Shown here piece by piece: positions 10,060 through 61,568 of a stretch of 64,000 nt of DNA. The stretch comes from Amylostereum areolatum (taxonomy: Eukaryota; Basidiomycota; Agaricomycetes; Russulales; Stereaceae), in contig SAXG01000023.1 of NCBI GenBank assembly GCA_012932865.1, forward strand, positions 1 through 64,000, written 5' to 3'. Position 1 is the first letter of the stretch. Each line of letters begins with the position of its first letter. The notes below the pieces were generated by a model, which had not been told where the DNA came from, made no database searches, and saw only the letters and a list, made by a program, of their open reading frames with translations. The translations under genes and the position numbers were made by a program.

Positions 10060-12533
10060 TCAGTGTACAGATTGCACAGACGACTGTGCAGACGAGGACG
10101 AGGGAGGGCCTCTGTAAGGCCACGCAGGAGGTGCGACCGGAGGAGGTGGGACCGGTGCCGGCGCATGCGGGAATCCAGGCGCACGACCTTGAACGCCTGC
10201 AGTTGAACCGGCGCGGGAACGCCCCTGTCGTTGATGGTGCATACTGGAGTGTGACGACCGACGCTCGTCGGTCGAGGAGTTGGAGCCGTAGGGCTGGGCG
10301 TAGAGAGGTCCGGGGTAAGGTGTGGAACGTGCGCTGGAGTTGCTGCGGGAGAAGGAGGGGACGATATCGATCATGGCTGGTCGACTCTGCAAGAAACGCG
10401 CGTCAACGAGTGTGGTGGTAGCGTGAAAGCGGCGAGGGAGACTTACCCCAGGGAGACTTGCCCCAGGAGCGGGTCCAGGAGCGGGTTCACGGGGAGGGGG
10501 TTCACGGGGAGCAGAAGGACCTGCGGTCGGTTGAGGCGGTTCGGCAGGCTGGGGTCCAGGAAGACCTCGAAGAGTGTTCATGAAACCGTTTGAGGCGCCG
10601 TGGCGTTGAGAATCGACGCTGTGGTTGGTGCTGTTACCGTCGGTGTCCCAATCGAGGGAGGGGTTGAGCGCGGAAACCACCGACGCCTGCGAGGTGCGCG
10701 CGTTGGCGTTGCTTTGGGGTGGCACAGGATACGGACCGTACGGCGGAATGGGGGTCGGGGCGGCGACGTCCACGGAGGGCCGTCGGTGAGATGGCCCGTG
10801 GTCGTAGGGCGGGTGGACGGGCGGAGGGGGGATCCGTGACCTCGTAGGGGGTGCGGTCTGCTCCTGCGGTCCTAGGCTCTCGCGCCGACTGCGACTTTCG
10901 GTGCTGGTTCGAGGACGAGAGGAGCTCTCCGACGCGGGTCTTGCACCAGAAGGAGCTGGCACCATGCTGACGCTTGTCGACGCACTCCCGACTCCGGGGT
11001 CAGGGACGACTCTCGAAGGTCCCGCCTCCGCGTTTGCTTCGCCTTGGTACGACATGCTTCGCTCGACGGATTGGCCGGGGAGGGGGGTCCTCAGCACCGG
11101 CGAGGACCGTCCCGACACGGAATCGATGCCCAGGGCATTGCCCGGCATGATCGCGTCCCCGCGTTGGCGCGTGGCCTCCTCCCTCTCTATCCGCTTCAGT
11201 TGCGCCAGCTCTCGGAACCGCTCTCTCCGCTCCTGGCGGCTTTCGACGGGCCTCGGCTCGTCGCGTCCGGGATCGCGCTCTCGGGGGCGAGGGTCCGCCG
11301 CGGGCGTGGATTGCGCGAGGTTCTGCGGTGGTTCGAATTGGGTGGGTATCACGCGGTCGTGGTAGGGTGCGCCTGGGACGTAATACATGCCGGGCTGTTT
11401 CTAAACAAGCACGTGGATGGATCAGGCCGAGCGTCCAAGGGGAGGGGGGGATAAAAACGAGGAACGCACCGTGGCTTCTGGGGGAAAGCTCAACTGGGGT
11501 TGATGTGGGTGGACGGTGGATCGCTCGTAAGCAGCTCGCGAGCCAGCTGCGTAATCGTAATTCTGATAAAAGCGGTTGTGGTTGACCGGTCGGGGTGGCG
11601 CAGGGAGTGGGTTGGAGGAGGTGGCGTTCATGGCGGACGCGGACTGCGTGGCGCGTATTTGCGGGGCTGAGTGGGTCGAATTGGGGAACTCGTTGTTCCA
11701 GAAGTTGAGTTCGCTTTGGGTCTTCGTGAGCTGATCAGAGGTATCAGTGAGGATGGGCCACTCGGGAAGAGAGCGGCGTACACGAGATACCTTCCTGTAG
11801 ATAGGTCAGAAGGGGAGAGAGATGAGACGGCGAGGGACGGGGGACGTACTCTGTTAGCTCCTCATTTTCTTGGAGGAGGGTTTCCTCGATCGCCTGCCAA
11901 CGCTCCTCGCAATCCTCCAATTCCCGTGTTCGCCGTGCCAACCTCATCTCGAGCTCAGCCACGCGCCGTCTGTCAACCGAGTTCTTCTGGCCGGCTTCCA
12001 TGGTCCTACGTATATAAGACAGAAAGTTTTCGATGTGGGAACACTGTTGTGTGCGAGTCAGTCCGCGGGCCATAGGGACGGGGAAAAAAGGAGCGCTCAC
12101 GTATGAGGAATCAGGATGATGCACGATCCACGCCTGCGCTTCCATGATGGCGCGCGAAATTTCTCGACTGGGGGCGCGGTCCTTGCACGCGAGCGTCAGC
12201 TGGATGAGTTGCTCGGACGCGTTGATCTTGTCCTCGCCCTCGCCACCGATGATGGGTCCGACGTGGAGCTTCTTTATGCGCTCCCTCGAGAATGGATGTC
12301 GACATAGCGGGCAAATGGAGGGGGTTAAATTGAGGAGGCAGCTGGACCGTGGGGATTACTAAGTCGCTGCGACGAAGATCGGAGAGAAAGACGACGTACC
12401 CCAGGCAGAAAATGTGGCCACAGCCGAGCGCGTGAGGCTTCAGAGCATCAGCTACTGGCCGTGAGAGATCGTCCGTCCACGAGAAAGACTCGAGACAGAC
12501 GTCGCACGTCGACTCCGGGCTTGCGTACAACAT
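10060..12533 (-). CDS. RING-finger/coiled-coil protein, family member 1
   Basis: Predicted 685 residues. Start ATG 12533-12531, stop at 10060. Exons on the minus strand: 12533-12400, 12341-12101, 11986-11850, micro-exon 11794-11791, 11730-11470, 11400-10447 and 10386-10060. All phases agree. A C3HC4 RING opens the protein: CDVC at residues 10-13, CGHIFC, and after the first intron CPLC followed by RERIKKLH. A coiled coil rich in Arg/Glu follows (VAELEMRLARRT). The rest, over 400 residues, is Pro/Ser/Arg-rich and probably disordered. RING domains usually make E3 ubiquitin ligases; that activity is inferred. The last intron (10387-10446, gtaagt to gcag) is 60 bases without a stop, so retention would add 20 residues in frame. 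It is divergent from member 2 across a 717-bp shared promoter. Confidence 0.8.
11791..11794 (-). other. Predicted 4-nt micro-exon (RING member 1)
   Basis: Minus-strand sequence ctacag|gaag|gtatct. The upstream exon ends in phase 2 (codon GA_, donor gtacgt) and the downstream exon begins in phase 0 after gatcag. Adding the four bases gives Glu-Lys and restores the frame. Flanking introns are 55 and 60 bases. Confidence 0.7.
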
Positions 12534-13250
12534 CGCCCTTGACCCTTTTCGATGCCGCCTTTATACAAAAAAAGCTGTAGTGAGAACAAATCGTTTAGGC
12601 GGGCATGACGAGGGGGAGGACAGAAGAGGCGAGTGGGTGAATTTTAAGAACTGCAAGGGCGGCCTGCCAGTGGACGGTGTTTCCGGAAAAGCACCGCTCT
12701 GCAATGAGGCTGAAGAAGCGGATCTAATCTAATCACAAAGTCTCTGCCCATCGCGGATCTCCGACGGTCACTCAGTGAGCAAAGTCCTGAGCAGTGGTCC
12801 TCGGCCTCCCCCCGGTCGACGACGACGAGCAGGGATCGTGGTGAGAAAAGAGCGCAGGCAATGGAGGAAGCAGGCTCGGTACTAATTCAATTTCTTTTCT
12901 GAATTGTTGCATTCAACTCTTCTTATCTGGGTTACGTAACAGCGCTAAGATATTTTTAAACATATTTTCCGCCTCGGTTCAAAGTCAAGGCTCCTCCTCC
13001 TTGGTGACCTTCTTGACCACCGCAAACTCAATCATCTCTGGCCGTCCCCTCTCCTTCTGCATCCTCCGCACCGCCTCTGCCCGAGATGCCAGGCGACATG
13101 CTGACCCCGATTCGCCAGATCGCCGATAAGATTAATGCTTCCACTAGCCTCGTGTTTAAATAAAGAGCTGCTTTCCGGGCGCTACCCTATCCCACTTTCT
13201 CCCCCTCGCCCAAGACGGTCTGTGGCGTCGCGTCCTCTGCTCCCTCAAGT
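12534..13250. promoter_or_regulatory. Bidirectional promoter region between RING members 1 and 2
   Basis: The two start codons face away from each other across 717 bp. On the minus side a TATAAA-like box lies at 12559-12565, only about 26 bases before the ATG. On the plus side a tttaaataaa stretch near 13153 lies about 95 bases upstream of the start. No open frame in the gap looks real. Confidence 0.5.
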
Positions 13251-15887
13251 ATGCTCATCGCTCACCAGTCCTCTACCTGCGATATCTGTCTCAATGAATA
13301 TCTGTGGGACGAGCCAGACGACGGCTCCCGCTGGTTGGCGAGACCGCATGTGCTCGGATGTGGTCATATCTACTGTTTGATGTGCGTGGCCCACCCTTTT
13401 CCTTCCTTAAATCGAACTTATGTCTCCCGAATTTACCAGCTGTCTCACGCGAACGTCGCCCCCCTTGTGTCCGTTGTGCCGCGTCCCGTACTCTCGAGAA
13501 CGAATCAAGAAGCTGCACATCAACCCACCCGACTCCGACATAATCGAAGGCCACCGCATCCTCGAACGTCTGGCCGAGAACTCCAGAATGCGGACCCCGC
13601 AAGACCAATTCGACGTCGTTATAAACGATGCGAATGCATTTGTGGCTCAGCACCCAGACTGCTCACTGGTTAGTACCGTCTTTTCGTTTGCCATTTGTGA
13701 ATCTGCTCAAGGCGCCTCAGCGCGAAGCCATCGACAGTCTCACCCACACGCTCACTAATTATCGATGGACCGCCGAAAAGTATGCGGAACAAGATACGAT
13801 CATTCGTAACCTTCAGAACGAGTTGGATGTGAAAGAGGGTCAATGCGCGTTTGCGCGAGGCATGGAGAAACACTTCAGAAAGATGATAAAAAAACTGGAA
13901 AAGTTAGAAACGTTTCCCTCTGTTTTTGCCGTTCTCTGACAATTGCTTCTATTTTTGTCTTTGTGCAGAGATGTGGGCATCCTTTCTGCCAGCTATTTTT
14001 TGCCCCCATGAAGCTAACGTTCTATAGCTAGGGGTAGCTCGAGCTGCTTCCGCTCCACGCGGAGCGGACGGTACACCAGCACGATTTCCTGGAGATGTCT
14101 ACTTTCAACCGTCGGAACCAGATCCACTGGCGCGGACAACGCCTCACCCCGCCCTAAACGAAACATGGGATGGTATTCGACCAGCAATCGTGGGGCAATA
14201 CAACAACTCTCCGGTTTATGAACGCGTCCCGTCTCCCAGACCTTTCCGAATATGGCGACGTCAACCTCTAGACCCCGACATGATACCCTACCCTCCCTCA
14301 GGCCCACTGATGTTCTATTTCTCTCCGCAGGAGCTAATTTCGCGCGGGCTCGCTCCCGACCACGGCCCTGTCTATATAGATGCGGCGCAAATGAATGTCT
14401 GTCGTCCCACTCTCTTCTTTGTGCGGGACGCATATTGACTTTGTAAATCAGCCTGAAGACGTGCTCGGCCACGAATTCTTGACAATGGACCTCCTCGCAC
14501 ATCCTCCCAGCCCCCGCCCCTCGGTCGTAAATTCCGGGGATGCGTCCGCCGACCCCCCTTGGGAGACCTTGGGCGCGATACTGGACGGAGTGAGGATGGA
14601 TGAAGACGAATCGCCCATCCCCGAAGATATGCTCGCCGCGATCAACTCCCCTTCCCAGCCAACCTCAAGCTCTCCAGTCCACCCCCCGCCGCCTAACTTT
14701 GATCAGCCATTGGGCACTCCCAACGTCGCGCCCCCGCTGTCGAGACCAAGCTCTCGAGGAAGCGAACACGGCAGCGCCGGGGCTTGGATTGGGTTTGGAT
14801 TCCCCGAGCATCAGTGTCGCAACCTACGCTATCGTCCATCTACGCCTGCTGCCCCCATACCTCAGTATCCCTCCAGTGGATTTTCTTTCGCGAACGATGG
14901 CATGTCGTCACCAGGTGTCATCACCCCGCCGCTCTCAGCCTCGAGATCGGGATCGTCGAGGTCACTTCCCCGGAGCCGTCCTGCCAGTGGAAGCAGCTAT
15001 GCCGGTGCATCGTCGCGCACTGGTACGGCGTCCCCTCCCGTCGACGACGCCTACGAAACCCGCCCCGACTCCGCTTCCAGTTGGCAGAGCACCGGAATGA
15101 GCGAAGCGCCCGACTACTTAGACGGCGACCAGCAATTCACGCGCCACCACGGCTCCGTGGGGACCACCGCATATGGTCTACCTGTGCCGACACCTCCGAC
15201 ACCTCCCATCCCGCGCCGATCCTCTCCTTCTCCCCCCTCCAGCCCCACCCACTCCTCCATAAGGTTTATCTCCCCATTCAACAACGAGCAGTCCTGGTCG
15301 GCGCTGCCGCCCGCTGCCCTCAACGACGTCCCGGTGCCAGCTCCCCCCACCCCGCCAACGCCCGCTCTGGGCCTCGCCCACGGCCAACAACCACGGACCG
15401 CAGAGCTGACCTTCGCCCAACTCCGTGCCCTCGTAAGCACGCTCCGCCAATCCCCCTCCGCACCACGGTCACTCACCCATACATATACCTCTGTTTTTTG
15501 TTGCAGCGCGGCCGACACCCGCCCGCCGTCGCGCCCCCGCCGACGTCGTCGACCTACATCGACCCGCCCGCAACCGTGCCGATCCCGCCGAGAGGGGCGT
15601 ACTACTCTCCCCCCGCGAGCGTGTACGGCTCGCACCCCGCCTCCGGTCCCAGCTCTCGGGTCCCGCCCCCGATGCAGGGCGGCTTCGGCGCCGCGTGGCA
15701 TCGAGGCGCGTCGCTGGAACGCCACCCAAGTACCGCCGCGGCGCCCGGCACCGCGAACCACACGTCCGCGCGCCCGGGCATGTCGAGCGTCGCGACGGCG
15801 GGGTTGACGCGTCCTTACGACGGGTCCGCGCCGGCGTTTGCGTCGCTCGAGCGGGGGTCGGGGCCGGACCGACGGCGGACTGGCTGA
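13251..15887 (+). CDS. RING-finger/coiled-coil protein, family member 2
   Basis: Predicted 758 residues. Exons: 13251-13381, 13440-13668, 13721-13902, micro-exon 13969-13972, 14028-14396, 14452-15432 and 15507-15887; all phases agree. The RING has CDIC at residues 10-13, CGHIYC, and CPLC after the first intron, then RERIKKLH as in member 1. A coiled coil follows (NLQNELDVKEG), then a conserved island reading ELISRGLAPDHGPVY, and a long Ser/Pro-rich tail. The tail holds NNEQSWSALPP and ends near SAPAFASLERG. Both tail segments have close counterparts in member 5 (59.0-61.6 kb), so these two are the closest pair. E3 ligase function is inferred from the RING only. The intron at 14397 uses the less common donor gtctgt, supported by the matching intron in member 5. 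Confidence 0.8.
13969..13972 (+). other. Predicted 4-nt micro-exon (RING member 2)
   Basis: Sequence gtgcag|agat|gtgggc. The upstream exon ends in phase 2 (GAA AA_, donor gttaga) and the next exon opens in phase 0 after ctatag. The four bases give Lys-Asp. Flanking introns are 66 and 55 bases, with ctgac and ctaac branch-like sequences. Confidence 0.65.
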
Positions 15888-16589
15888 CAGTGAACGTCTT
15901 CGCTTCGTTGTTCCTCTGGAATCTGGATCCATGTTGATGTTGCTTTGACGCGTTTTTGTCCTTGCCATGTTTCCGTCCTGCTTTATCTGGTGCTCTCCTT
16001 GCTTTCGCTGCTGTGTAATCTGCTCTGCGACGTTGTCCGCCCACGTACGACCCAGTGTATCGCGCGTTTTATTCTGTTTGCCTTCTCGTGCGTTGTATGT
16101 GTAGTGTTTTGTATCACCGTTGTTCTCTCGGTTTCGCTGTTCCGTTCGTTCTATCCCTGTATCATACGACCAGCACAATCGAGCACTTTTCCTGAACGAT
16201 AAAGTCTGCATTATCGCGGGATCCCCACTGGGAGACTGACGTCCTCACTCAGAGTGAGGACCGTACGTACAACGAGAACGAGTGTCTTCTGATGAGTATT
16301 GGGATATTGAGAAATACTCGAAAAACATGGACAGAGTGGGAAGTGGACATCGCGACAATACAACATGATCACATGACGGACCCTGACTGGCCTCGCGGCG
16401 CGAGTCGCTTCTCCATCTCCTCATCCTCCCACAGGCTTCCAGTCTCTCGCGTCTGTCCATCTGCACGCGCGAGTATCGTAACCGATTGAACCCGGAACGC
16501 ACTGTTTTGAACTTTCGAGCGGCCTACTCTACCCTGGACTCTCGTCGCCACAACCTACCCGTCACCAGACCACGAACGACGCCCTCGAG
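15888..16589 (+). other. 3' region of RING member 2 and upstream region of GLE1
   Basis: T-rich sequence after the stop at 15887 looks like a long 3' UTR, with cgataaag near 16198. The second half should hold the GLE1 promoter and leader. No coding frame with a recognisable motif is present. Confidence 0.45.
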
Positions 16590-22079: not shown

Positions 22080-22085
22080 GTGAAT

Positions 22086-23495: not shown

Positions 23496-23505
23496 GTTCT
23501 AACCT
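23496..23505 (+). repeat. Right copy of the 10-bp target duplication
   Basis: gttctaacct, identical to 22656-22665. Confidence 0.65.
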
Positions 23506-27931: not shown

Positions 27932-29660
27932 TCACCCGCGCGAAGCCACCCGCGGACCCTGCGGCCGCGACGACGCGCTCGAGGCGGCCGCGTTCGCCAG
28001 CCAGCGTTGGTGGTCCGCCGGAACCGGGGTGGTGGACGGAGCGGGGCCAGACATGGAGAGGGTGCGGCCCTTGGTGCGTGCGAGAGGAGTAGGGGAGACG
28101 GGGGTGCCGGTGCGGTAGGCGTGCACGGCAGGGGTGGGAGCGCGAGAGGGAAACGGGCCCGTCGCCGTCGACGGACGGAGGCCGGGTGCATGTGGGTGTG
28201 GGTGTGCATGGGAAGAGGAGGCGGCAGGTGTCGCGGAGCGGGGGAGGGAGGCCACCGCGGGCGTGGTGCTACGCCCAGGGGCGACCGACGCCGAGCGGTA
28301 GTGGCCGCTGGTGAGGCGGGTGAGGGGAGAGGCCAGGGTGGACATGTTCGAGAAGGAGGGCGCCATGGAGGTCGGTGAGGACACGCGGGTGCCTGGGGGA
28401 GACACGGGCGGGGAGGTGTGCGGGGTGCTGGGCGCGGAGGCGGTCGGACGCGTCGAGGCCGGCCGCGGGATACTGCTGCCCGACAAACCGGTGTGGGCGG
28501 CGCTGGGCGCGGCGGCGGGGGTGGCGCGGAAGCGGCCAAGCTCGCTACGGAGGCTCTGGCATTCCTGGGCCTTTTGGGCGTATTGAGTTTTCTGCAAGGG
28601 AGAAAGCGATGTCAGCGTCGGGTTCGGATGGAAGCGAAGGCCCGCTGCGAGCACGGCATCCTTGTTCGTGGCAGGCAAAGGTGACGTCGACCCCGACGGA
28701 TGGTTGACTATGTCTTGGGAAACCAAAGCGAGTAGCCATCGCTTTCGTTCCCCACGCATCGAAACGGCCAACCATCCGCCGAGGTGGATGTTACCCTTGC
28801 TCCCCCAAAACAAGGGGCGGCGCTAGCAGTGGGAAAAGGGGGAAAGAAGGCTGACCTGCCTGCGGAAGGAGAAAGAACGCGTTAGAACGGGTCAAAGGGG
28901 GTGACAAAGGGTGACTCACCGATGGAGCTCGTGCTCGAGGTCGTCGACGCGCTTGTGAAGGGTGGCTTCGACGGACTTGGCGGCCTTTGTAGCTTCTGAA
29001 AATGCGAAATGGTTGGCGAGGATGGCGCGGAGGAGGAGAGCAGAGAGGTAGAGGGAGGAGGACTGCGAAGGGGAAGAAGAGGAAGCTGCGTAAGCACTCG
29101 ACTCTGCGGGGGAACGAGAAGACGAGGGGCGCACGGCGTCCGAGTGGCCGTTGTCGGTGTTCAGCCAGTCCTGGAGCTCGCGGTGGAGGGTGGAGACCTC
29201 GTCGACCGAGGTCTTTTTGGTGGCCACCCTGGCAACTTTGGCCTCGAGCTGGCGGTAGATGCGGGCCTTGAGCTCGGAGGCGTCGGGACCGGTGTTCTGG
29301 GTGGGCTTGAGCGGGGGCTCGTAGTCGTCCTCGATGAGCGGCGCGCGGGGGCTCAACGGGCTGCGTCGGGGGGTGGTCCAGCCCGAGGTAGAATGACCAG
29401 AAAAGTCGAAGCGAATTTTGCGGACGCTGCTGCGGGAAAAGCCCTCGCGGCAGAAGGGACAGACGGGTGCCTTCTGGGTCTTTTCGATGATGTTGGTGCA
29501 GCAGGTGAGGCAGAGGACATGGCCTGAAAAAAAGTCGTCAGACGGGGGTAGAAGTGTCGGAGAAAGAGCACGCACCGCAGGGGATGGAGTGGGGCAAATT
29601 ACGAGGACCGAACTCGTCGGCGCAGACGTCGCAGAGAGAGTTGGGCTCGAGGGTGAGCAT
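27932..29660 (-). CDS. RING-finger/coiled-coil protein, family member 3
   Basis: Predicted 450 residues, the shortest of the five. Exons on the minus strand: 29660-29576, 29523-28920, micro-exon 28859-28856 and 28591-27932; phases agree. It starts MLTLEPNSLCDVC, so the first RING cysteine pair is at residues 10 and 13. CGHVLC is split by the first intron, LTCC follows, then CPFC. Unlike the other members, the first intron falls before the His and the RING has no second intron. The coiled-coil region (residues about 125-225) runs into DDLEHELHR, the micro-exon adds RQ, and the next exon continues KTQYAQKAQECQSLRSEL. The tail is Ser/Thr/Pro-rich. The intron after the micro-exon is long for this window (264 bases). 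E3 ligase activity is inferred. Confidence 0.8.
28856..28859 (-). other. Predicted 4-nt micro-exon (RING member 3)
   Basis: Minus-strand sequence tccgcag|gcag|gtcagc. The upstream exon ends CAT CG_ (donor gtgagt), and the downstream exon starts in phase 0 after ttgcag. The four bases give Arg-Gln. Flanking introns are 60 and 264 bases. Confidence 0.7.
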
Positions 29661-39681: not shown

Positions 39682-40022
39682 TCTATGTACATAATCTGTG
39701 TGCCATGTATGATAGCGACGTCAGATCGAACAGGGCTGTAAGATATAAATCCTCTTTGATATACATTGCGTGAATAGCAGCAAGCTCGTGGCATCGGAAA
39801 GCCTCGCAAAGAACTAAGTATCCATAATCCCTGCGGCAGTCGGCTACTTGAACTACCCCAGCCTGAAGCGTGTGAGAATATGTTACCCCTTATAGCCTTC
39901 TCCCAAGCGCGGTCGCCGACGTCACCGGCAAGTTGACTGGGTCGCCATTGTCGTTGTCGTCCACCTCCTCCTACTAACTCCTATACTTATCCCACCCTTT
40001 CACGCGCTCTAACACCCGCGAT
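39682..40022. other. Spacer with the VAMP7 promoter
   Basis: 341 bp between the small HTH-like gene and the VAMP7-type gene. It contains a ccttatag sequence near 39888 and pyrimidine-rich DNA just before the ATG. No coding frame is visible. Confidence 0.45.
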
Positions 40023-41001
40023 ATGTCTTTGGTACGTGGAAGCATTTGTCGAAAATGGACAGCAGCTTAGATGGATATGCGCACAGATACACGCCCTCGT
40101 CGCCCAGGGCTCCACCATCCTGGCAGAGCACCAAGCCGGCCAACGGGATTTCTCACAGGGTGCGTCTCTGAATAAACTGTACCCATGTTTTCGTCATTCG
40201 AAGGACTTGCAGCGACGCAGACGATCCTTTCAAAGGATCCCGCCCAACAATAGCAAGCTCACGTACGTCTGGGAGCAGTATCTCTTCCACTACATCTCGG
40301 AAGGTGGATACACCTACCTCGTCATGGCCGACGACGCAGCCGGGCGGTACGTGGTTTCACTTCGCTTTCTTTCTGGAGCTGATGTCCCCTCTGTTGTGCA
40401 GAAGAATGCCATTCACGTTCCTCGGCGAACTTCAGCGCAAGGTTCGTCGCCCCTCTCTCCTCGTCCTCGGCCACCGATGTTCACCTCCTCCCTCGGTAGT
40501 TCATATCCGCATCCTCCCCGTCCATCCCTCTCCCCGCTCGCCCCGCACGCACTCCAATCCACCTTCGGCCCGGCGATCTCCAACCTGCTGCACACCTACA
40601 ACACAACGCCGCCCTCGGACGAGCTCTCGCGCGCCCAAAACGAGCTCGCGCAGGTGAAGGACATCATGGTTCAGAACGTGGAACAGATCCTCTCCCGCGG
40701 CGAGCGCATCGAGCTCCTCGTCGACAAGACCGACACCATGGCCAGCCAGGCCACCGCCTTCCGCCGCGGCGCACGCACGGTCCGTCGTCAGATGTGGTGG
40801 CGCAACAAGCGTGTGCTCGCCCTCGGCATCCTCGTTGCTCTCGTGCGTCCCCCTTCCCATTCCAAGTGCTCCCACCCCCTACCCCCTCGTTTCCCGGATG
40901 CGACGGCTGACGACGATCCGCGGTGCGGTTTTCAGGTGATCGTATGGATCATCATGGCCCAGTTCTGTGGTGCGGCTCTGCGTTGTGGATCGAGGGACTG
41001 A
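40023..41001 (+). CDS. R-SNARE of the VAMP7 (longin) type
   Basis: Exons begin 40023-40031 (MSL) and 40087-40159 (IHALVAQGSTILAEHQAG). They continue at 40213-40346, 40402-40441 and about 40500-40842, and end at 40936-41001. The N-terminal longin domain includes SKLTYVWEQYLFHYISEGGYTYLVMADD and RMPFTFLGELQRK. The SNARE helix is ELAQVKDIMVQNVEQILSRG with the zero-layer arginine in LSRGERIELLVDKTD. A single C-terminal membrane anchor follows (RVLALGILVALVIVWIIMAQF). VAMP7-type SNAREs drive fusion at late endosomes and vacuoles. After ATQTILSK the frame is off by one extra base (aaagg, 40233-40236) before IPPNNSK. A second slip of the same sense is needed after 40500. Sequence on both sides is conserved, so I treat these as probable base-insertion errors rather than loss of an important gene. 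Confidence 0.85.
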
Positions 41002-41877: not shown

Positions 41878-43987
41878 CTACGCCTCCAACCTCCGCGACT
41901 TGCCCTCGTACCCACTCCGGGTGCTCGCAGAGGAATCCCGCCTCTCCATGAACGCACGCGGCCGCTCGCTCGCAGTCGAGCTCGCGAACGTGGCCGGGGC
42001 GGTCACAGGCGGCTCCTGCGGAGGCGTGCTCCGCGTGGACGCGTACGACCCTCCAGACTCCTTCCTCCTCCGTTCGCGCTCGCGCTCCAAAGCCTGCGCC
42101 GCGGCGCTCGCATGCGACACCGTCGTGCACTGCCAATGCGGCGGGGGCGGGGGCGGAGCCGGCGGGGGCGCAGGCGCCTCTCCCTGTGCTCGCCTCGACG
42201 CTCCGCCGCCCTCGTTGTCCTCGCCCGGAGCCCCCAACGCGCGCGCAGCGGGCAGCGGGGTGGTGAGGATATCCGTGAGCTTGTACATGCGCTCGTGGCG
42301 CGCGTTGACCTCGCCCTCGTCGCTCGAGTCCGGCACGAGCTGCAGCTGCAGACGATTCACGCGCTGGCGCATCTTGCTGCTCATCCCCCTCGAGCCGGGG
42401 CTTCCGCTGCCCGCGCTGGAGGAGTTGTTGCGGGAGAGCGACGCGTGCTCGCGCTGTTTCTCCTGGCGCTTGCTGTAGTACGTCGCCGGGTGCGGGTGCG
42501 GGAGGGACGAGCTCCCGCTCGCGCTGCTCTCGCCCAGGAGATCGTAGAAGCGCGCCGCGACCGCGTTCACGCCCGAGATCGCCATCGGCTTCGTGGTCGA
42601 GGCGGAGACGTAGTCCGCTTTTTCGATCGAGCCGTCCGGGGAGGCGGGTTTGGACCGACGCGAGCTCTGGGCGGAGGGCTGGGGAGGGGGAGGAGGCGGA
42701 TCCTTGCTATCGGGGTACTCGCTCGCGAGATGCTCGTAGAGCGGGCTAAACGCGTTCATCGGCGCGGGCGCGGGCGAGAGGTGCGCGGGCAGCGGAGAGA
42801 AGTGGTCCATCCCTCCCTCGACGGGCGTCGTCGTCGGGGGCTTGAGCAGCCCGTTGTCGTCGTCCGAACTCTCGTTCTCATCTGACGACGGCTCGCGCGG
42901 CTTGGACATGCTCAGCAACGAGGGCTGGGGCCCCCCGTGCGGACGGGCGCCCGGGTCGGCGTATCGATCCGGTCCCGCACGACGGGAGAAGGACTCGATC
43001 TGCTCGCGGAGCGCGCGTACTTCGTCCATGACGTTCTCGTACTGATGGAAATGCGCAGGCAGGCAGGGAAGGTTTAATTAAGAGGCTGGGAATATGACGC
43101 GGGGAGCTCACTTTGCTATGGGCGGGAGAACACGCGACGCGAAGGGGAGATGGGGGGAGATTGTGAGCGACGGGTTTCCGGACGACGAGAAGGGGGAGGC
43201 GTACCGGGACCATCGCGCGTCGAGTTCGTCCGCCTTTCGCTCGAGCGCGGACGTATGTGCGCGCTCGGCCTGGACATCGCTGTGTAGCCTTGCGATCTCG
43301 CGTTCGGCGTCCTGTTCCCGGCGTTGATAGCGCCGATGCGTCTCCTGGAACTCGTTCGTGGCCTTGTACAAACTAAGCTGCGCGCCCTGTTGGTCCTTGT
43401 GCATCTGCTGGTAACGGACGACGAGGAGGTAGAGCGCGCGGAGGTCCCAGTGCTGTCTTCGTTTCAGATCGGAGACGGAGATGGAGACAGGAAGGGTGGG
43501 GGTGGGTATGAGGTAACGAACGTGATCGACTGACCTCGTCGTCGTGCGATCGGTCTCGGAGCCAGGTGCACGCCTCGTGCAAGAGTGCTTGGAACCTCGT
43601 CCCGTCGGCGCCTTCGCGAACCATGGCGATGAGGCGCGCCTTCAGACTCTCCTTCTCGTCGGGATCGCCTTCCGATTTGATGGGGTACGACAGCGCACTC
43701 GGTGTTGTCGCCGGCGTCGTCTCGACGTGGAGTCTTCGGATTGCGCGAGGGTCGAGGTAGGCGCGGCAGAGGGGGCAAAGGAGACGGGGTAGGGAGTCGA
43801 TGCACCTGGCAGGTCGCGACAAAGAAATTAGAGGGGCGTGGACGTCGACTAAGGTGTGTACGCACTGCTTGCAAAAAACATGACCGCATTCTGTCGCATG
43901 GGGTATCCGCTTTTGCCCATAGGCGTCGATCTCGAAATATGTCTCCAAACAGATGTCACAGGAGGACGAGGGATGGATGACCAACAT
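41878..43987 (-). CDS. RING-finger/coiled-coil protein, family member 4
   Basis: Predicted 602 residues. Exons on the minus strand: 43987-43866, 43805-43535, 43452-43205, micro-exon 43115-43112 and 43041-41878; phases agree. It starts MLVIHPSSSCDICLETYFEID, followed by CGHVFC. The first intron falls inside the KQC codon pair as in members 1, 2 and 5, and CPLC follows. The coiled coil is long: NEFQETHRRYQRREQDAEREIARLHSDV to ELDARWS. The micro-exon adds RK and the last exon continues YENVMDEVRALREQI. The tail is Ser/Pro-rich with acidic patches (DENESSDDDNG). The last exon is unbroken, whereas members 1, 2 and 5 have further introns there. A TATAAA-like box lies about 100 bases upstream (44083-44088). 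E3 activity is inferred. Confidence 0.8.
43112..43115 (-). other. Predicted 4-nt micro-exon (RING member 4)
   Basis: Minus-strand sequence cccatag|caaa|gtgagc. The upstream exon ends TCC CG_ (donor gtacgc), and the downstream exon opens in phase 0 after catcag. The four bases give Arg-Lys. Flanking introns are 89 and 70 bases. Confidence 0.7.
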
Positions 43988-49236: not shown

Positions 49237-49297
49237 TTTACTTTATGTAATGTGCCCCGCCGCGTCGAAGTCGCGCTCGCCTCTACCGACGTTGACC

Positions 49298-50351: not shown

Positions 50352-50408
50352 AAAGAAAACAGTCTACGATTTTACGCAAGGATACACAAATACGCTCCCC
50401 CCCCCGCC

Positions 50409-53400
50409 TCACTCCCCCGCGTTCGGAATGACCGCGCACCGGTCGTAGTTCCCCTCCTGGTTCGCGCCCCACCATTGCGGGAACAGGTGCGAGGTGCCTG
50501 CCGCGCCTTGCACCGCGAACGACAGGATGAACACCATCACCTGCGTGCCGCCGTCCAGAGCTAGGTGACCGCGCGGCGCCCAACCATCAGCGTTCAACCC
50601 CGCGACGCCACAAACAGAAGGACACGCACCGGCGCCGAGGATGTAGTTGTACTTCGCGAACCACTTCGGGTAGCGCGTGCGGAGCCACCACTGGGAGAGC
50701 CACGCGATGACAAAGTAGGACAGGATGGACGAGTTGATGCCGACGCAGAGCCAGCCGATGTAGTAGCTGTCCCGAATCCGAATCCATCAGCGTCTCCCGC
50801 ACCCGCGCAAACGCAAACGCTCGCGAAACCCACCAGATGACGGGCGTGTACAGGTAATCCGCCCTCAGCTTCGGCCAGTAGCGATGGACCACCCAGAACG
50901 GCACGGGCACCGCGAGCCCGATGACATACGCCCACGCGACCCACTGGTAGCGTTTCCCGCTCGCGAAGAGCTCGTGCGAGAGCCCGCCCCAGGCGATCGC
51001 CTGCGAGTTGTACTGCTGCGGCTGCTGGCCGGACCAGATGTTCGTGCCCTCGACCGAGAGCAGGATGTCGCGCTGGTTGTCGATGATCGAGTTCATGAGG
51101 ACGTAGTTGAGGATCGCGCCGAAGAGGGTGCCGATGATCTGCGCGACGAAGGCCGCGCGCGGCGGGAGCTTCGTGTCTGAAAAAAACAACCACGACGTCG
51201 ATGTGAGGTCAACCGGGGTTGGATAGGGGAGCACGGAGACATACATTGGGCAATCTTGAGGTCGCGCAGGAGGAGCTGGGCCTGGATGACCGAGTCTGAA
51301 GAGACGGGGTAGGGCGGGAGATATGGGGGATGAAAGGCTCACGACGTACTGTATGAGTAAAGCACGAAGAACATATTCGCCACCGGTTTCCCTGGGTGGA
51401 GAAACCCGCCGATCATCTGCACGAATGGCTGGATGATGAACTGCAGGCCGGTCATGGCGTACAGCGAGCCGAAAAACAGGATGGAGATGGTGGCGAGAAG
51501 GCACGCGATGAGGAATCCCCACCTACCAGCACATGTTTCGTCAGTTGAACAAGGGGGAAACGAGGGAAACGAGGGAACATACCATGGCAGCGTTGAGTTG
51601 GTCTTGTAGATGAGGACGAGCGCGGTCACGATCGACGCAAGGAGCACGATGATGTACCAGCTATTTGGTGCGTCCTTGTACTGGAGAAAGAATCCTGACC
51701 GTCGGCATTGTCCTTCTGACAAAAAATCGGTCACGAACCTTGAGCATCTCGCGATAATGCGGATCGATGTCCTCGCCCTCGGCCGGCGCATCGCGGAGGC
51801 CTTCGTCGCGCCAGAACCGCCAGTCGAAACGCGACCAGAGCCTGCGGATGTTTGATGGCGTAGCCCAGCTCCACGCGCCGGACATGTCAGAGAAATTCCA
51901 AAGGAGAAGATGGGTGAACGTCGCGGCCATGCCAAGGTTGGTCGAGAGCAGCTGCGTGACCCATGTCGCGGAGTAGAAGGGGAGGCCCTGCTCGGCGAGT
52001 AGCGTTTTGTCGACCTCGAGATTTTCGTTCAGGATAAGCGTCTGGTTGTACAGCGTGCCGTTCTCGTAGAAAAGCGTTTGCGAGAGCTGCGTGGTAAGTG
52101 TGTGAGGGCGAGCGCTCACCAGCGCGCATGGTAAGATGGGCGTGGAAGACGTACGAAGGGGAAATTCTTGGCATCCCAGATGTTCTTGTAGTAAACGGCA
52201 ACGAACACGGCCCTGTGAGTGGGTGAGAAGCATGAGCGCCACAGTACCCACAGGACATCAGAAGGAGAGCACGGACATGCAAAGGACGTAGCCGATAAGG
52301 TTCGAGAACTGGTCGCATGACAGTGAGTATGTCAGATACGTTATTTGGCGTAGCGCTCTTACCTGCGCCTTAAGAGGAATGGCGAACGGATTGTAGGAGC
52401 CCCCGATGTACTGCCAGTCTGCCCTACGGTGAGGACTCACTTGACTCCTTAAGAGAAAGGACCAAAACTCACCAAAGCAAATGCTGAACAAACCAAGGCC
52501 TTCGTTCCCATTCGACCCGCCAAAGATGCGCGTAAAGTTCTGTGACTTCGGGTTCGCAAGACAGAAGATCGAAAACCCGGTCAGGAGGGGGAACATCCAC
52601 TCTGGGAAGATCTCCCAGATGAAGATTCTAACATCGACATCAGTCCCAATGCAGGCGGATGGAGCAGAACGACGCACACGCCGAACACGATGTAGAACAG
52701 CCTCAGCTTCTTTCTATTGTCCGCGCCGTGCTTGAAAAAGGCATCCAGCATGGATGTCAACGGGAGGATTCCCGGGTACAGCATCTTGGACGGATACAAG
52801 AGAATCGCTGGTAGGCGATAGTATGTCAGCGCCACCGTACCTCAACCATCGTTCACACATGGATGGGACTTACGGCGCATCAAACCCCCGATACCATACC
52901 CCAGAAACTGGCTCGAAAACAGCATGAAAATCGAGGCGGCCGCGTTGGGCGTCGTGTTGTAATACAGACGCTGCACCGCGAGAACCTCTGTCCCGAGCGC
53001 AGAATTGGCTGCGGCGCTGGACATGATCACGATGAAGGCGTTCTCCTTCTTGTTGAAAGGGCCCTGGAAAGAGACGAATACCCAACCTCGTTAGCGCATG
53101 GAGTTCTGCACGCGGGGAAAAAGGCAGGACGGACGGGATTGAGATAACGGAACCAGCCCTTGCGTGGGATGACCGTCTCCATAAATATCCCGATGACATA
53201 CGCGATGATAGCGAGGAACATGGTCGACACCAACACCGTTTGCTGGAGACATGGCTGTCAGCGAGATACCCCTTCGAGCCAACCGCGAAAGGGAACCCAC
53301 CGGCTTGAAGTAGTATATCTCAGCTGTCCATCGCCCGTTAGACGCTTTGAACCTGGACTTGTGCACATGGAATCAGCTCACCGAGCACCCCACCAAACGC

Positions 53401-53655
53401 CGACAGCCCAATCCCGATGAAAAACGCGCGGAACGTCCAGGGATTGAGGTCAGGGTCATCCTCGACGGTGATCACATGCGTAACGATGTCCCGCTCGTCC
53501 TCGAGCACCTCCGATACCACGCTGCCCGTCACCGAGACCGACTCGACATCCTTCTCGACGTATTCGTCCGAGCCCGTCTTCTCGTTGAGGTGTAACGCCT
53601 TTTCGTCGCGCCTGAGCGCGGGCTCCGTCTTTTCCAGGCGCGTTGGGGAGTCCAT
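50409..53655 (-). CDS. OPT-family oligopeptide transporter
   Basis: A minus-strand gene from ATG 53655 to the stop at 50409, with many short introns (about 13-15 exons). The first exons are 53655-53382, 53323-53301, 53242-53135 and 53063-52874. The N-terminus is cytosolic and acidic, then membrane helices begin at NPWTFRAFFIGIGLSAFGGVLAEIYYFKPQ (split over two exons). Further family segments are SKMLYPGILPLTSML, EIFPEWMFPLLTGFSIFCL, GSYNPFAIPLKAQ, WWGFLIACLLATISILFFGSLYA, VIGLAVPVPFWVVHRYWPKL and the end FPQWWGANQEGNYDRC. OPT proteins are proton-coupled importers of small peptides, glutathione or metal chelates at the plasma membrane. Substrate cannot be told from sequence. Not all splice sites were resolved. 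Confidence 0.9.
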
Positions 53656-54346
53656 CGCGGGTGGGAAACTTGAAAACAAGTGTGCGGGGGGAAGGGAAAA
53701 GCCTGCCTCTAAGCAAACGAGCGCAGGCCATCACGCGCCGGGTTCTTATAGGCCTCACTCGCGTCAAGTTGGCGTGGGTATCATGCGGTGGACCGGCGGA
53801 ACATGCGACTCTTCTGGGCTCGTGAACCGTCGTCTTTTGCTTTTTCGCGTGCAGGCACATGGGAGCTCGCATATTAATAGACGAAGTAACAGCTCGTGGA
53901 GATGGCGGTCTGGGAGAACGATGTCAGGGCCAACAAAGAGATAGGGAGTAGGCTCCGCGCGCACCATTCTAAACCAGGCGGGGACCACGGGTGGGACTGC
54001 GGGATTTCAGACGCATGAAGTTTGCAGCCTTTACAGACCAATTGGAGTCGTTGACGATAGGATACCTGTAACTACCGGGTCCAGAGGTCCTACCAACAGT
54101 TTTAGACAAGACTGCAGGACCGCCAGCCCAACTGCGACCACAGCGTGGCCACTGGCCACTTGAGATAAGGAAGTCCCCATGCGATCATTTTGTATGAAGT
54201 TTGCCCGCCGGCTGTGACATCGGTAACTTGTCGGAGCTAGAAAATAGCCAATGAGGTCAGCGGCCATCCAAGTCGTCGGTAAGTAACTTACTGGCCTGCC
54301 GCCAAGGGACGATGTCAACGCGAAAAAGTGGATTGGTATTCAGGAC
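53656..54346. other. Spacer between the OPT gene and the Tc1-like transposon
   Basis: About 690 bases holding the OPT promoter side and host flank of the transposon. No gene with a recognisable motif is present. Confidence 0.4.
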
Positions 54347-54348
54347 TA

Positions 54349-54417
54349 CAGCCGTTTGCATAACCGACTGGAATCCGCGCGTCGAGAAACTTGTTTGTCA
54401 GAGCCAAACATTGCCTT
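54349..54417 (+). repeat. Left terminal inverted repeat of the Tc1-like element
   Basis: 69 bases, identical as reverse complement to 58304-58372; divergence starts at 54418. Confidence 0.9.
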
Positions 54418-54497
54418 TTCGGGAAATCACGTCTGCTGCGGGAGTGACAGCTGTGCGTCGCGAGGTCAGCTTTGCAGTGTCTTGAGTCCTGACCGCA

Positions 54498-55589
54498 ATG
54501 GCACCTCCCCTTAACCCTCAACTTCGAGAACGCATTGTCGAATGGCGGGAGCGTTTTACAGTCTCCGAGATCACTGAACTCGCGCAGTGCTCAAAAAGCA
54601 CAGTCTATGAAATCCTCCGCCTTTATCGCGAGACAGGTTCAGTGCATAGTCCCCATGGACTGTTGTCCCATGGCCGCTCCCGCATCCTTTCATTTGGAGA
54701 GCTCACATCCATCAACTCCTGGTTGGTCCAAGAGCCAGCAATGTTTCTTGACGAGATTCAAGACCGTCTTGACAAGGAGCTCGGAGTGTACGTTTCACTT
54801 GCAACCGTCGCCCGCGCTGTTCGCAGCCTTGCTCTCACTCACAAGCGGATATCAAAGGAGGCATTGGAACGAAACGATGCCGTTCGCGCAATGTGGGATG
54901 CAGCTTGGGGGGATATACCCATGGAGAGCATAGTCTGGTTGGATGAATCTGGGGTGGATGATCGGGCACATCAGCGGACAATGGGAAGGGCACCACTGGG
55001 ATCTGCATGCGTCCGCCGTGACCTGTTCTTCCATGGCACACGCCTGACAATGCTCCCAGTGCTCTCCTGTGATGGGATCATTGCTTTGGATCTTCTCGAA
55101 GGATCAGTCAACCGTGAGAGGTTCCTCCATTTTCTGCGGGAGGATGTTGTACGCTTCAATTTCTTCTGGATGTCTGTGTCATGCTTATGCCTGTGTTGTG
55201 CTCATATAGGCACCCCTTCTCAACTCATATACTCCAGACAATCCAAGCCGTAATTCTGTGGTAGTCATGGATAATGTTGCCTTTCATCATGGAGACGAAG
55301 TGCGGGAGATCATTGAGAATGACTGTGGTGCGTTGTGCTGTCTGAAAGCTCCGGCTTCAAGGTATACTAACCAGTTTTAATGACAGGTGCAAAGCTTATA
55401 TACCTACCACCATACTCCCCCGACATGAATCCCATCGAGCAAGCTTTCAGTAGTATCAAAGCCTTCTTGCGCCGTAATGAAAGCCACTTCACTGGACCTC
55501 ACATGCGCGCTGAACTCATCCATCTTGCTATGGAAGAAATAACGAATGAAGATGCCATTGGCTGGATTACAAACTGCGGGTATTCGTAA
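54498..55589 (+). CDS. Tc1/mariner (IS630-like) transposase
   Basis: 323 residues in three exons: 54498-55148, 55210-55327 and 55387-55589, all in phase. The N-terminus has a helix-turn-helix ([24 protein letters not shown]), then a second DNA-binding part ([21 protein letters not shown]). The catalytic triad is visible: Asp149 in WLDESG, Asp238 in [11 protein letters not shown] and Glu274 in [10 protein letters not shown]. Thirty-five residues lie between the second Asp and the Glu. The third exon has the usual [12 protein letters not shown] context. No stop or shift interrupts the frame, so an active enzyme is possible. The start lies 80 bases inside the left terminal repeat. Confidence 0.9.
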
Positions 55590-55758
55590 AGTAGGTAACG
55601 AACGTGGGGTAGATGTATGGACAGAGGTGATTATGCGACAGATGAGGGAGTAGTAGTAGGTTAGCGGAAGGTTATGCAGTGTAGTAAAGAGTGGGGGGTC
55701 AGGACAGCATGGTGTATGTACAGAAAATATTAGGCAACATTATAAAGGTTCGAGAAAC

Positions 55759-57805: not shown

Positions 57806-58303
57806 GAGGGAGGGAGCGGGAAAAAGATGGGGATGGAACTCACAAGCTCAAAACCCGAGGCTTTTTATCATCTTCGCCAACTTCACCGCAACTTCGCCGT
57901 GCTCCTGTCATCCACCAGAATCCCACCCTCGTTGTTGCCCTTCAATCATGCGCAGTTTTGGTTTCTAGAGAGATCCAAATTAAGTGTAAGCATCCAAGAC
58001 CACGAGGGGGACGTCTCCGAGGCTCCCGACTCCTCACTCACCGAGTATCCAAGCAACAAGGGTGGTTTGTGCTCGTTGTTGAGGTTTTTCAGGGTATTGA
58101 AGGCTTCTAGGCCAGCTATGAGGAGTTTTCATGACTCCCGAAGCCCGACACGGAGAGTGTTGATCACTCTGGAGAGGTCATTTGGGTGGAAAGTAGATGG
58201 AACATGTCGTCAATGGTCATCGCAAAGATCAGGAAGCCCGCTCCTGAACAGCACGAAGTCACAAATGAGTCACTGCGTGACGAATGTGATAAGCACTCCC
58301 AAT

Positions 58304-58372
58304 AAGGCAATGTTTGGCTCTGACAAACAAGTTTCTCGACGCGCGGATTCCAGTCGGTTATGCAAACGGCTG
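58304..58372 (-). repeat. Right terminal inverted repeat of the Tc1-like element
   Basis: 69 bases, exact reverse complement of 54349-54417, followed by TA. Confidence 0.9.
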
Positions 58373-58374
58373 TA

Positions 58375-59035
58375 AGTACACAGAGTGACAGAACATACTT
58401 ACCCGGTACGCCGTGACTGGACAGACTTGCCGACGATTGACAAGGAAAGAAGCAAGCGCTCGGGAATTGAATAAACTCATATTGACACGCAGGCCTGCGA
58501 ATGACAGAACAAGTCCACATTGATCACCCAGAGCCCACGCGCCCATTTATTCGGTCGAAAACGCGCTCATCAATATCTGCGCATGCGGCCATGCGCCATC
58601 GCAGGGTCAGTGTCACTGTGTCCATCGACATCCTCCATGCAACCCTCTCCGTTCTCCCTGCGGGCTTATTAGCCTTTGTTGTTTCACTTCTCTAGTCCGG
58701 TGTGGCATCACCGCGATGCTTACATCGTTCTGGTCCCCAGAGGTGCAGCATGGTAAGTACAGGTACAGCACCGGCGTGTGGTGCACCCAGTCTAAGCAAT
58801 TCATCGCACTACCACGTCCGGGGAACACGGCTTCCGAGGGGAACGTAACATCGTAAGTACGCCGGACCATCCCCGAGTCCAGGCATGACGACACGCCGCA
58901 CAATATCATGAAATGACATAAGGAGAAAGGCGCAACACGTAGAGCGCTCGAGAGAGCAAACGAGGGCGACAACATCCCAACAACGAGCCGTAAACGAGAG
59001 AACGTCCACCAGTGACAAACGGCCAAAGAAAGCAT
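58375..59035. other. Spacer between the Tc1-like element and RING member 5
   Basis: Host flank and probable 3' UTR of the minus-strand RING gene. Short frames only, and no motif. Confidence 0.4.
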
Positions 59036-61568
59036 TCAGCGATCTGGGTTTTGGCTCCGGTTCGCCCGACGCCCCGCCCGCGAGGACGACGCGAACGCCG
59101 GGGCCGAGCCAGGATAACTCGGACCCCCCGTTGTCGAGCTCGACGAGCGTTGGGACGCATATCTCGGCATCCCCTGCGGGTGCCAGTCCGGCGGCGAGGC
59201 GGCGGCCTCTTGCGCTGTAAGCGGGTCCCGTGGATAAGGCCTCCCAGTAGAGCTGTGGAACGCTCCGTGCGTGTTTGCGGGAGGAGAGAGGTACGAGGCC
59301 GGGTTCGACGTCGGCGAGAGGGAGAGGAGGGGGCCCCTGCTATTCTGCGAACAGCATTCATGGATCAGTACCTGGGACACGGAGGGGCTACGCAAAGCGA
59401 GACGCGCTTACCATCTCACGGATCCCGAACGACGGCTCGGCGGCCCTTGGTTGGCCATTCGGCGGGCTCTGGATGGGCTCCAGCCGGATGGGAGGAACAT
59501 TGCTGAGGAGGGGGGGCGACAGCACCGACCAGGACTGCTCGCTGTTCAGTGGGGAGACGATACCAAGCTCCCGGAAGTGGATTGGGTTGGCTGGGGGCGA
59601 AGCATAGGCCTCTGAGGGGGATCGACTCTCCGAAGGTAGGGGAGCGGTGCTTGTGTAAGGTACCCGAGTCGCCGCAGGTCCGCGACTTGTATCTGAAGAA
59701 GGATGCCCGTCGTCGGTGGAGAAAGGCGAAGAGGCGACGCTCTCGTCGTCGCCCCAGTCGTCGCTAGACAGCGACATGCTCGAAAGGCCGTCGCTGGACC
59801 CTCTCCGGTGAAGGAGTGCGGATGACCCTGGAGCTGAGGGCTGCGATGCGGGACCTCTTGGAGGCATAGGCGAGTATCCGCCGGGGGAAGTGTAGGGGGT
59901 GGGGGTATCAGGGGAGTACAAAGGGATTCTGGTGAGGGAATGGGAGACACGGTCCCGAGGACCGGTCGACTCTACGGAGGCGTTGTCGTTGGACCGCCGG
60001 CCGCTGCGATGGTGTTCCTGCGAACTGGTGCTCGGTGCACCATCATCTACGCGCCCAATAACCTCCACTGGCTGCGAACCCTCGACGCCAGGGTCCCCTG
60101 GACGTGAACTTGGGAGTTCATGTCGAGCACCTGGGTACGCTCCGAGACTGCCTGTGGATATGGACCGGATATCCACCGCGCTCCTGGGCAGGATTGCCTC
60201 GTCCTCCTCCGATGTTGTAGCCATGGATTCCCTGGAGGAGAGAATGGACCCGCTCCGCCCAGGGCCCCTAGATCGCGAGCGTCGGTTAGGTGCTTGTGCG
60301 CTTGTGCTCGTGGAGGTGCGTTCGGGGCCGACGATGGGTATGTGCTATGTTGCAGGGTCAGCGGGTGTGGTGTAGAGAGAGAAAAAACGACATACATCCG
60401 TCTGGGACGCTTCGACAAGGACAGGTCCGTGGTCGGGAGGGAGCCCACGCGCGATGAGCTCGGCCGGTTCGAGGTTGTGAATAGTCGGAGGCCGCCGCAC
60501 GTTGGAAGGCAGAGGCTGGTCTCCCCATATTTGAAGAAGAGCTGGTGACGGGGGGAGCGCATACAAGGGGGTTCCGTTGAAAACGCCCACAACGGGTGGT
60601 CGCGCCCTATCAATCGGCCGGTGTGTTGCGGGGTCGGGCGTCGGCACTCGCGGTCTTTCTCTTGGGCGAGAGCCGTCGTTTCCAACGGGAGATTGTCCTG
60701 ATACATCGACCGTCTCTAGGGGATCCCGAGTAGCTCGATTAGCCACGCGGAGCTGTAGAAGGTTGAATGGGTGTAAGAAAATGAGGCGGTAGACGTGCAT
60801 ACCTGCCTGCATAGAAGACAATGTGAGCCAGAGGGCGATACCGGCGAAGTGTTGGGTTTTGCTCACCCTTGTAGCTCCTCGATTTGTTGCACAAGGCGGC
60901 TCTGGAGCTTTCGCTCGTCGCCGTGCTGCTCTTCTTTGCTGAGGATCAGGCGCCGAAGTTCACGAACGGTCATTGTCTGGTCCGCGTGTTGTTGAGTGAG
61001 TTCTGCGTATTGGTCGGCGGTCGACCGATGTCGGACCGTCGAGCGAGAGAGGATGCGGATGGCGTGGCGCTGGGGCTGCGTGAGCTCGTTGCTCATGAGG
61101 AAACGAGACGAGAGTGCTCACCAGGCGGCATTCGGGGTACTGGTCCAAGAACGCATTCGCCTCGTCTACGATGGCGTCGTGTTGATCTCGTGCTAATCCT
61201 TCGTCGGAGAAAAGAGCGAGACGTTCGAGGAGGCGGTGGCCCTCGACTATGTCCTGTGGCTCGGGTGGGGGTGGATTGACATGCAGCCTCTTGAAGCGCT
61301 GTGGCGGGTTCGAACCATCGCACAGGGTACACAGTGGCGGCGATCTCCTGTTGAGGCAGCTGGAAGATTCAGGATACAGACGTCAGTTTGAAGAGAGAGA
61401 AACGTGAACCGGACAAGGAGCGTACATCAAGCAGAAGATGTGGCCACATTCAAGCGCATGCGGCCGTGTTAACCAGCGCGTTTCCTCAGGCGCATCATCA
61501 TCCGGGGCGTCCCACGAGTAGGCCTGTTTACAGATGTCGCAGGTGGAAGTCGGGTGAACGAAGAGCAT
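59036..61568 (-). CDS. RING-finger/coiled-coil protein, family member 5
   Basis: Predicted 728 residues. Exons on the minus strand: 61568-61426, 61359-61122, 61069-60867, micro-exon 60806-60803, 60752-60396, 60344-59412 and 59344-59036. All phases agree. The start MLFVHPTSTCDICKQAYSWD gives the first RING cysteines at residues 10 and 13; CGHIFC and CTLC follow. The coiled coil (MTVRELRRLILSKEEQHGDERKLQSRLVQQIEEL) ends at the micro-exon. The next exon holds ELIARGLPPDHGPVLVEASQ and the tail holds NSEQSWSVLSPP and SAPAFASSSR, all matching member 2 closely. Intron positions also match member 2 throughout, so these two are the most recent pair. The long tail is Ser/Pro-rich and probably disordered. 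E3 ligase activity is inferred from the RING only. Confidence 0.82.
60803..60806 (-). other. Predicted 4-nt micro-exon (RING member 5)
   Basis: Minus-strand sequence tatgcag|gcag|gtatgc. The upstream exon ends CAA GG_ (donor gtgagc), and the downstream exon opens in phase 0 after ctacag. The four bases give Gly-Gln. Flanking introns are 60 and 50 bases. Confidence 0.7.

Follow-up and report, generated by a model that had tools for sequence, protein, structure and literature searches.

A four-nucleotide micro-exon predicted within the coiled coil of six RING-protein genes of the basidiomycete Amylostereum areolatum

Results

The window analysed here is a 64,000-nucleotide (nt) stretch of Amylostereum areolatum DNA (contig SAXG01000023.1, positions 1 to 64,000 of the forward strand) that carries five genes, numbered 1 to 5, for putative RING and coiled-coil proteins. 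We rebuilt the five gene models from the raw sequence and modelled a sixth paralogue from the same assembly; the 3' ends of the models of genes 2 and 6 are partial. An initial annotation had proposed that a 4-nt exon, with AG before it and GT after it, lies between two introns in each of the five genes and mends a clash between a coiled-coil exon that ends in phase 2 and a next long exon that starts in phase 0. Both proposals were borne out from the raw sequence: the segment stands between AG and GT at all five coordinates, the phase clash is present in 5/5 genes, and the 4 nt bridge it, giving the residue pairs EK, KD, RQ, RK and GQ in genes 1 to 5.

The first exon of gene 1 (12400..12533, minus strand) encodes the N-terminal part of the RING, and its coiled-coil exon (11850..12043) is followed by intron a (11795..11849, 55 nt, gtacgt...ctacag), the micro-exon GAAG (11791..11794, E/K), intron b (11731..11790, 60 nt, gtatct...gatcag) and the next exon (11470..11730). 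This intron b is 0 mod 3 in length and stop-free in frame, and gene 1 is the only one of the genes in which intron b could be retained with an open frame. Gene 2 lies on the plus strand and comprises the coiled-coil exon (13721..13902), intron a (13903..13968, 66 nt, weak donor gttaga), the micro-exon AGAT (13969..13972, K/D), intron b (13973..14027, 55 nt, weak donor gtgggc) and the following exon (14028..14396). The second exon of gene 3 (28920..29523, minus strand) holds the rest of the RING, the linker and the start of the coiled coil; intron a (28860..28919, 60 nt), the micro-exon GCAG (28856..28859, R/Q) and intron b (28592..28855, 264 nt) separate it from the last exon (27932..28591), which opens with the remainder of the coil. 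Gene 4 (minus strand) has its coiled-coil exon at 43205..43452, intron a at 43116..43204 (89 nt), the micro-exon CAAA at 43112..43115 (R/K), intron b at 43042..43111 (70 nt) and its last exon at 41878..43041. The corresponding parts of gene 5, also on the minus strand, are the coiled-coil exon (60867..61075), intron a (60807..60866, 60 nt), the micro-exon GCAG (60803..60806, G/Q), intron b (60753..60802, 50 nt) and a following exon of 357 nt (60396..60752). Elsewhere in the six models, the remaining 17 introns measure 46–82 nt, and the gap thus has room for two introns of ordinary size in every gene except gene 3, with its intron b of 264 nt.

When the spliced models were searched against the 57-Mb assembly, a further member of the array, here gene 6, was found just outside the window, on the plus strand of contig C99 from position 72249 onward (about 1750–3500 of the extracted locus L072). 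Its micro-exon, ACAG (L072:2470-2473), encodes RQ between introns of 58 and 53 nt, and it bridges the same clash as in genes 1–5, from a phase-2 end of the coil exon to a phase-0 start of the exon that follows. Judged as an exon of ≤15 nt with AG before and GT after, the element is 4 nt long in 6/6 genes and its inclusion restores the reading frame; gene 1, however, also has stop-free alternatives. Two upstream introns with the same phases (2, then 0) are common to genes 1, 2, 4, 5 and 6. Gene 3 has a single upstream intron, in phase 1 and elsewhere in the RING. Between gene 3 and its paralogues, the only introns that look shared are therefore, as far as the models go, the two that flank the micro-exon.

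The region of genes 1 and 2 (window 9460-16048) is copied on contigs C54 (98.4%; L073) and C180 (99.1%; L074), with identical micro-exons in both copies. The C54 copy lacks one G just within intron b of gene 2, and its differences are mainly small gaps (66 gap openings against 26 mismatches over 6.5 kb), a pattern that sequencing errors or decay would give. Both copies look like alternative haplotypes, which would make them of little value as independent evidence.

The ligands of a RING (C3HC4) can be read in all six spliced models as C-x2-C ... C-x-H-x2-C-x2-C ... C-x2-C. Pfam RING matches were obtained with pieces of genes 1–4, above the curated cut-off in gene 4 only (the first exon of gene 5 was outside the scan). 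A profile of 49 relatives of gene 3 matches solved RING proteins, the best being RNF168 (2.4e-6), in a match that spans the RING and runs into the linker (profile 7-158); no solved structure covers the whole protein. Three profiles were compared: one built from gene-3 relatives, one from gene 4 plus its relatives, and one from genes 1, 2, 5 and 6 plus two relatives. They match over the stretch that begins with the RING and includes the coil (E 1.7e-19 and 8.3e-30), and on profile comparison all six genes are one family.

The predicted structure of P0002, a relative of gene 3, consists of a RING, two shorter helices, a single helix at residues 171-258 and a disordered tail. Residue Q235, at the micro-exon site, falls inside helix 171-258, in the part of that helix that is predicted best (mean predicted local distance difference test score of 98 in its block of ten), and the micro-exon residue is accordingly placed by the model within one long predicted helix. 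We do not assign these proteins to the TRIM (RBCC) family, for which we looked for a B-box: none was found by Pfam on eight exon pieces at E 0.1 or among the precomputed domains of 117 relatives. A structure search with P0002 gave nothing at E ≤0.001; its best matches were RING domains (TRIM30, 3.5e-3), and the RBCC chains of KAP1/TRIM28 came no better than E 0.45. Among solved structures, RING domains of TRIM and RNF proteins are the nearest. Ubiquitin-ligase activity may be supposed.

A protein search with gene 3, scored among the 7995 candidates sharing most words, returned at least 105 relatives, and the searches with genes 3 and 4 together returned at least 117; in the gene-3 search, products of less than 0.55 of the query length were out of reach. 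A search with the alignment of genes 1, 2, 5 and 6 and two relatives gave two matches. From their names, we take the named gene-3 relatives to be agaricomycetes. Taxonomy look-up placed three of the relatives in the Gomphales, Hymenochaetales and Boletales; Amylostereum belongs to the Russulales. The 105 gene-3 relatives were aligned around the site and assigned by hand to three groups: 18 transcript-like sequences (short contigs with sources labelled jgi or lgn), 12 genomic reading frames and 75 named gene models.

A residue is carried at the site in 18/18 of the transcript-like contigs, all from other species (Q in 15, L in 2, and in the last an L that runs into an apparent read-through). 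All 12 genomic reading frames end at a K or R codon directly before the site, as expected where the intron begins gtga. Intron 1 is spliced out in 15 of the 18 contigs; P0015 retains it, P0057 has no intron 1 in its first 80 residues, and P0105 is partial. From the source label, the shortness and the spliced intron 1, we infer that the short contigs are complementary DNA. P0015 and P0023 are 98% identical over 161 aligned positions and read K-Q-K-V-Q-Y and K-Q-V-S-C, respectively, at the site. P0023 looks like RNA from which intron a has been removed and in which intron b is present, matching the expectation for CAG|gtnagy, and intron b is apparently retained in contig P0091 and gene model P0027 as well. 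The same junction is visible in the gene-4 relatives P0113 (Lactarius) and P0109. The sequences of the gene-3 relatives appear to give near-direct support for the micro-exon, and the suggestion in the initial annotation that the arrangement is ancient is supported by the recurrence of the junction in gene-3 relatives of many Agaricomycetes and in gene-4 relatives.

In Lactarius deliciosus, a gene-3 type relative (P0103) and a gene-4 type relative (P0113) lie on contigs of equal length, and their locus numbers differ by 3. Auriscalpium vulgare likewise has one of each type (P0001 and P0114) on contigs of equal length. This pairing suggests an old cluster.

Public gene models are uneven at the site. 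A single residue that is neither Y nor C, with the coil after it, is found in 38/75; Y or C, as a donor moved by 4 nt would give, in 15/75 (among them P0019, which also leaves the coil); 2-22 residues in 16/75; and no residue in 2/75, with the remaining 4 leaving the coil. For 20 residues past the junction, P0103, the gene-3 type protein of L. deliciosus, equals the +1 frame of the relative P0003, and P0113, the gene-4 type protein, equals the +1 frame of P0109 for 59 residues; 200 shuffled controls for each gave at most 7 and 6 residues. By sequence, P0103 and P0113 are the product that direct skipping of the micro-exon would encode, and in these automatic models it is better explained by annotation error than by real skipping. 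P0106, the public gene-4 model from Amylostereum chailletii, is broken at the micro-exon. It is 99% identical to gene 4 over 64% of the length of gene 4, starts within the coil exon, translates intron a, and then uses the intron b donor that we predict (AGCAAA joined to TACGAG).

Splice-site strength was scored in two ways. A matrix trained on the 17 introns away from the micro-exon placed the intron a acceptors between the 52nd and 90th percentile of all AGs in the genes. When whole genes were left out in turn and flanking introns were kept in the training set, the donors and acceptors beside the micro-exon scored like those of the 17 introns elsewhere. The exceptions were the donors of gene 2, which are weak, with scores of 1.3 and 3.7 against a minimum of 4.8 among those 17 introns. 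Whether the micro-exon acceptors look middling or ordinary thus depends on the scoring.

Other features of the window include frames with AAA_11, AAA_12, AAA and AAA_lid_6 domains at 3510-9668 (plus strand), perhaps one large multi-ATPase gene, and a synaptobrevin/longin protein at 39937-41001 (plus strand). An exon of an OPT oligopeptide transporter lies at 50587-51522 (minus strand), and a transposase-like frame with a paired-box/HTH region and a DDE_3 match below its cut-off at 54486-55253 (plus strand).

Discussion

The simplest objection to a 4-nt exon is that an AG and a GT flank 4 nt by chance. We shuffled the gap with dinucleotides preserved, 1000 times per gene, and counted AG-N4-GT sites that leave introns of at least 40 nt; their frequencies in genes 1–6 were 0.056, 0.095, 0.374, 0.089, 0.033 and 0.035, the product of the six being about 2e-7. 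Gene 3 by itself would not be persuasive at 0.374. The paralogues share descent, and the shuffle result is one that counts against random occurrence, not against inheritance. The argument in the initial annotation that agreement among the genes speaks against chance is strengthened by the rarity of such sites among the shuffled gaps and by a sixth paralogue of matching layout, which together make chance sites unlikely. A single intron in place of two was sought by a scan for GT-AG introns of 45-400 nt that keep the frame without a stop, with donors from 60 nt before the exon end and acceptors up to 60 nt past the start of the next exon. Within these limits, gene 6 has no such intron. In genes 2–5, the solutions among the four best per gene all insert or delete coil residues, and those of genes 2, 4 and 5 are low-scoring. 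Gene 3's score better, and its best two remove about 12-15 coil residues that are present in the transcript-like contigs of relatives. We rejected these other single introns on the strength of their absence from gene 6 and the damage to the coil in genes 2–5. A zero-length exon that uses the second AG of cagGCAGgt or cagACAGgt (genes 3, 5 and 6) was likewise set aside, as inspection showed the wrong frame.

A shifted site could also do away with the micro-exon, as when the donor moves downstream by 4 nt (gtac|gt). This works on paper in gene 1, and the Y or C in many public models, 15 in all, may reflect an assumed donor of this kind. The +4 shift, however, meets a stop (gtga) in genes 3, 5 and 6, and genes 2 and 4 have no GT at +4, so that the sequence rules it out in 5/6 genes; within its limits, the scan left gene 6 with no single-intron solution at all. 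Moreover, Y or C is seen in 0/17 of the transcript-like one-residue cases as against 15/57 one-residue models (Fisher p 0.016, kinship ignored). We regard a single intron with a shifted site as extremely improbable. For gene 1 alone, it could instead be that the 60 nt of intron b are normally coding, adding 20 residues and leaving the micro-exon no longer separate. The segment is stop-free, its length is divisible by three, and the read-through model has 724 residues. Yet its donor (gtatct, 5.9) and acceptor (gatcag, 6.7) score within the range of other introns, a branch-like CTRAY lies about 14 nt upstream of the acceptor, and all five paralogues have an intron at that place. Normal coding use of this intron is, in our view, unlikely.

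The initial annotation further suggested that the exon acts as an on/off switch, in which case skipping it, or retaining intron b, under some conditions would yield a tail-less RING protein or a decaying mRNA. Its premise that skipping truncates the protein holds for genes 1, 2, 4, 5 and 6, where a stop follows 1–43 codons after the junction, and fails for gene 3, where the frame entered by skipping meets no stop before the modelled coding sequence ends (last exon 27932-28591, minus strand, about 220 codons). The apparent retention of intron b in P0023, P0091 and P0027 would fit such a switch, and a glucose-dependent micro-exon switch is described for Trichoderma Xlr2 in the accessible text of PMC11121469. 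On the other hand, skipping is seen in 0/18 transcript-like contigs (products under 0.55 of the query length being beyond reach), the skip products that are seen are two automatic models, and a 4-nt exon cannot give two in-frame isoforms. These data leave the switch unsupported, and we hold it to be improbable.

We favour a different account, in which an ancient, constitutively included micro-exon keeps a RING-plus-coiled-coil protein in frame, and we give it a rough probability of 0.88. The splice sites, the phases, the sixth paralogue and the matching junction in relatives' proteins can be read directly from sequence; constitutive inclusion, the order of intron removal and the age of the exon are what we infer from them. 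Each gene would encode a RING (C3HC4) that is joined through a helical linker to a long coiled-coil helix, with a disordered tail, and within the coil the run of codons would be broken by two introns 4 nt apart. These introns would be removed separately and in succession, most likely through intron definition. The 4 nt left behind in the mRNA would supply the last base of one codon and one full codon. Two splice complexes would hardly fit on 4 nt, and removal is therefore presumably sequential; the contigs with intron a gone and intron b kept offer a thin hint that intron a is removed first. Intron definition is expected for introns this short. According to the accessible part of PMC8624252, its efficiency depends on the length of the intron rather than that of the exon, and because short introns are recognised singly, exon length hardly matters. 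The remark in the initial annotation that such exons are near the limit of the spliceosome accordingly carries less weight here, both for this reason and in view of the 1-nt exons documented in the available text of PMC12940212 and PMC8831610. Inclusion would be constitutive as the route to an open frame with an intact coil, and the 4 nt may be kept because losing them without losing both introns shifts the frame. The arrangement would predate the split of the gene family, in an early agaricomycete.

Several observations weigh against the constitutively included micro-exon. The support comes from the genome and from relatives' proteins rather than from mapped RNA reads of this genome, and the transcript status of the short contigs is itself deduced. 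In other species, the one residue could lie in a contiguous exon after intron loss. The coil alignment is loose, so the micro-exon column of gene 3 may not correspond exactly to that of the other genes. Gene 2 has weak donors, and the intron a acceptors have middling percentiles in the first scoring. On the same side count the public models, of which only 38 of the 75 have a single residue that is neither Y nor C before the coil, and the stop-free alternatives of gene 1 (read-through of intron b, a donor at +4 nt or an acceptor at +17 nt).

One close parallel is the 1-nt exon of the Fusarium CYP621A cytochrome P450 genes (PMC12940212, as far as its accessible text goes). There too, an ultra-short fungal exon was revealed by mismatched flanking phases, nearly all automatic models were wrong, and the tell-tale sign was an intron whose length was over double that of a normal one. 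It differs in being 1 nt long, confined to one orthologue group in one genus of ascomycetes and documented by reads from the Sequence Read Archive, whereas the exon described here has 4 nt, occurs in six paralogues and in relatives' proteins across the agaricomycete class, and is known from genome and proteins. Plants have micro-exons of 1-15 nt, including a 4-nt rice exon checked by reverse transcription PCR, and in the available portion of PMC8831610 these are likewise very small, phase-restoring, in some cases long-conserved and often misannotated; they were found by RNA sequencing, whereas the basidiomycete case rests on genome and protein data. The Xlr2 exon of Trichoderma virens is also a fungal micro-exon, but in the text available it is reported as a regulated switch (PMC11121469). 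Small fungal exons in expanded families are described in the accessible parts of two further reports, on Phanerochaete chrysosporium P450 genes, with micro-exons of 6 bp and up (PMC1184071), and on Tuber nank genes, with codon-sized micro-exons described as alternatively spliced (PMC4986451). The Phanerochaete exons resemble ours in their small neighbouring introns and differ in that the shortest has 6 bp. Mentions of micro-exons in the Cryptococcus and Rhizoctonia genome papers, in the text that is accessible, refer to aligner settings. Neither this exon nor its gene family appeared among the entries listed by searches of the open literature, which excludes most subscription journals. Within a known kind of ultra-short exon, this one would be unusually old, and it is unusual in its spread over paralogues and species.

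It is conceivable, though we consider it rather unlikely, that the 4-nt exon predates the radiation of the Agaricomycetes, was carried through repeated duplications of the RING/coiled-coil genes and outlived other introns, possibly held by a function coupled to splicing (for example, intron b retention that controls output) and not merely by the frame constraint.

Overall, these genes would provide a conserved, multi-gene basidiomycete case of an exon small enough for gene finders to miss, with damage visible in public models as frameshifts, read-through introns and a truncated gene. For annotation, the combination of an intron about twice the normal length with a phase clash may serve as a rule by which such exons can be recognised. 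Six paralogues and many species form a natural series in which to see how an intron-definition spliceosome copes with introns 4 nt apart, and the same series bears on why so small an exon lasts so long.

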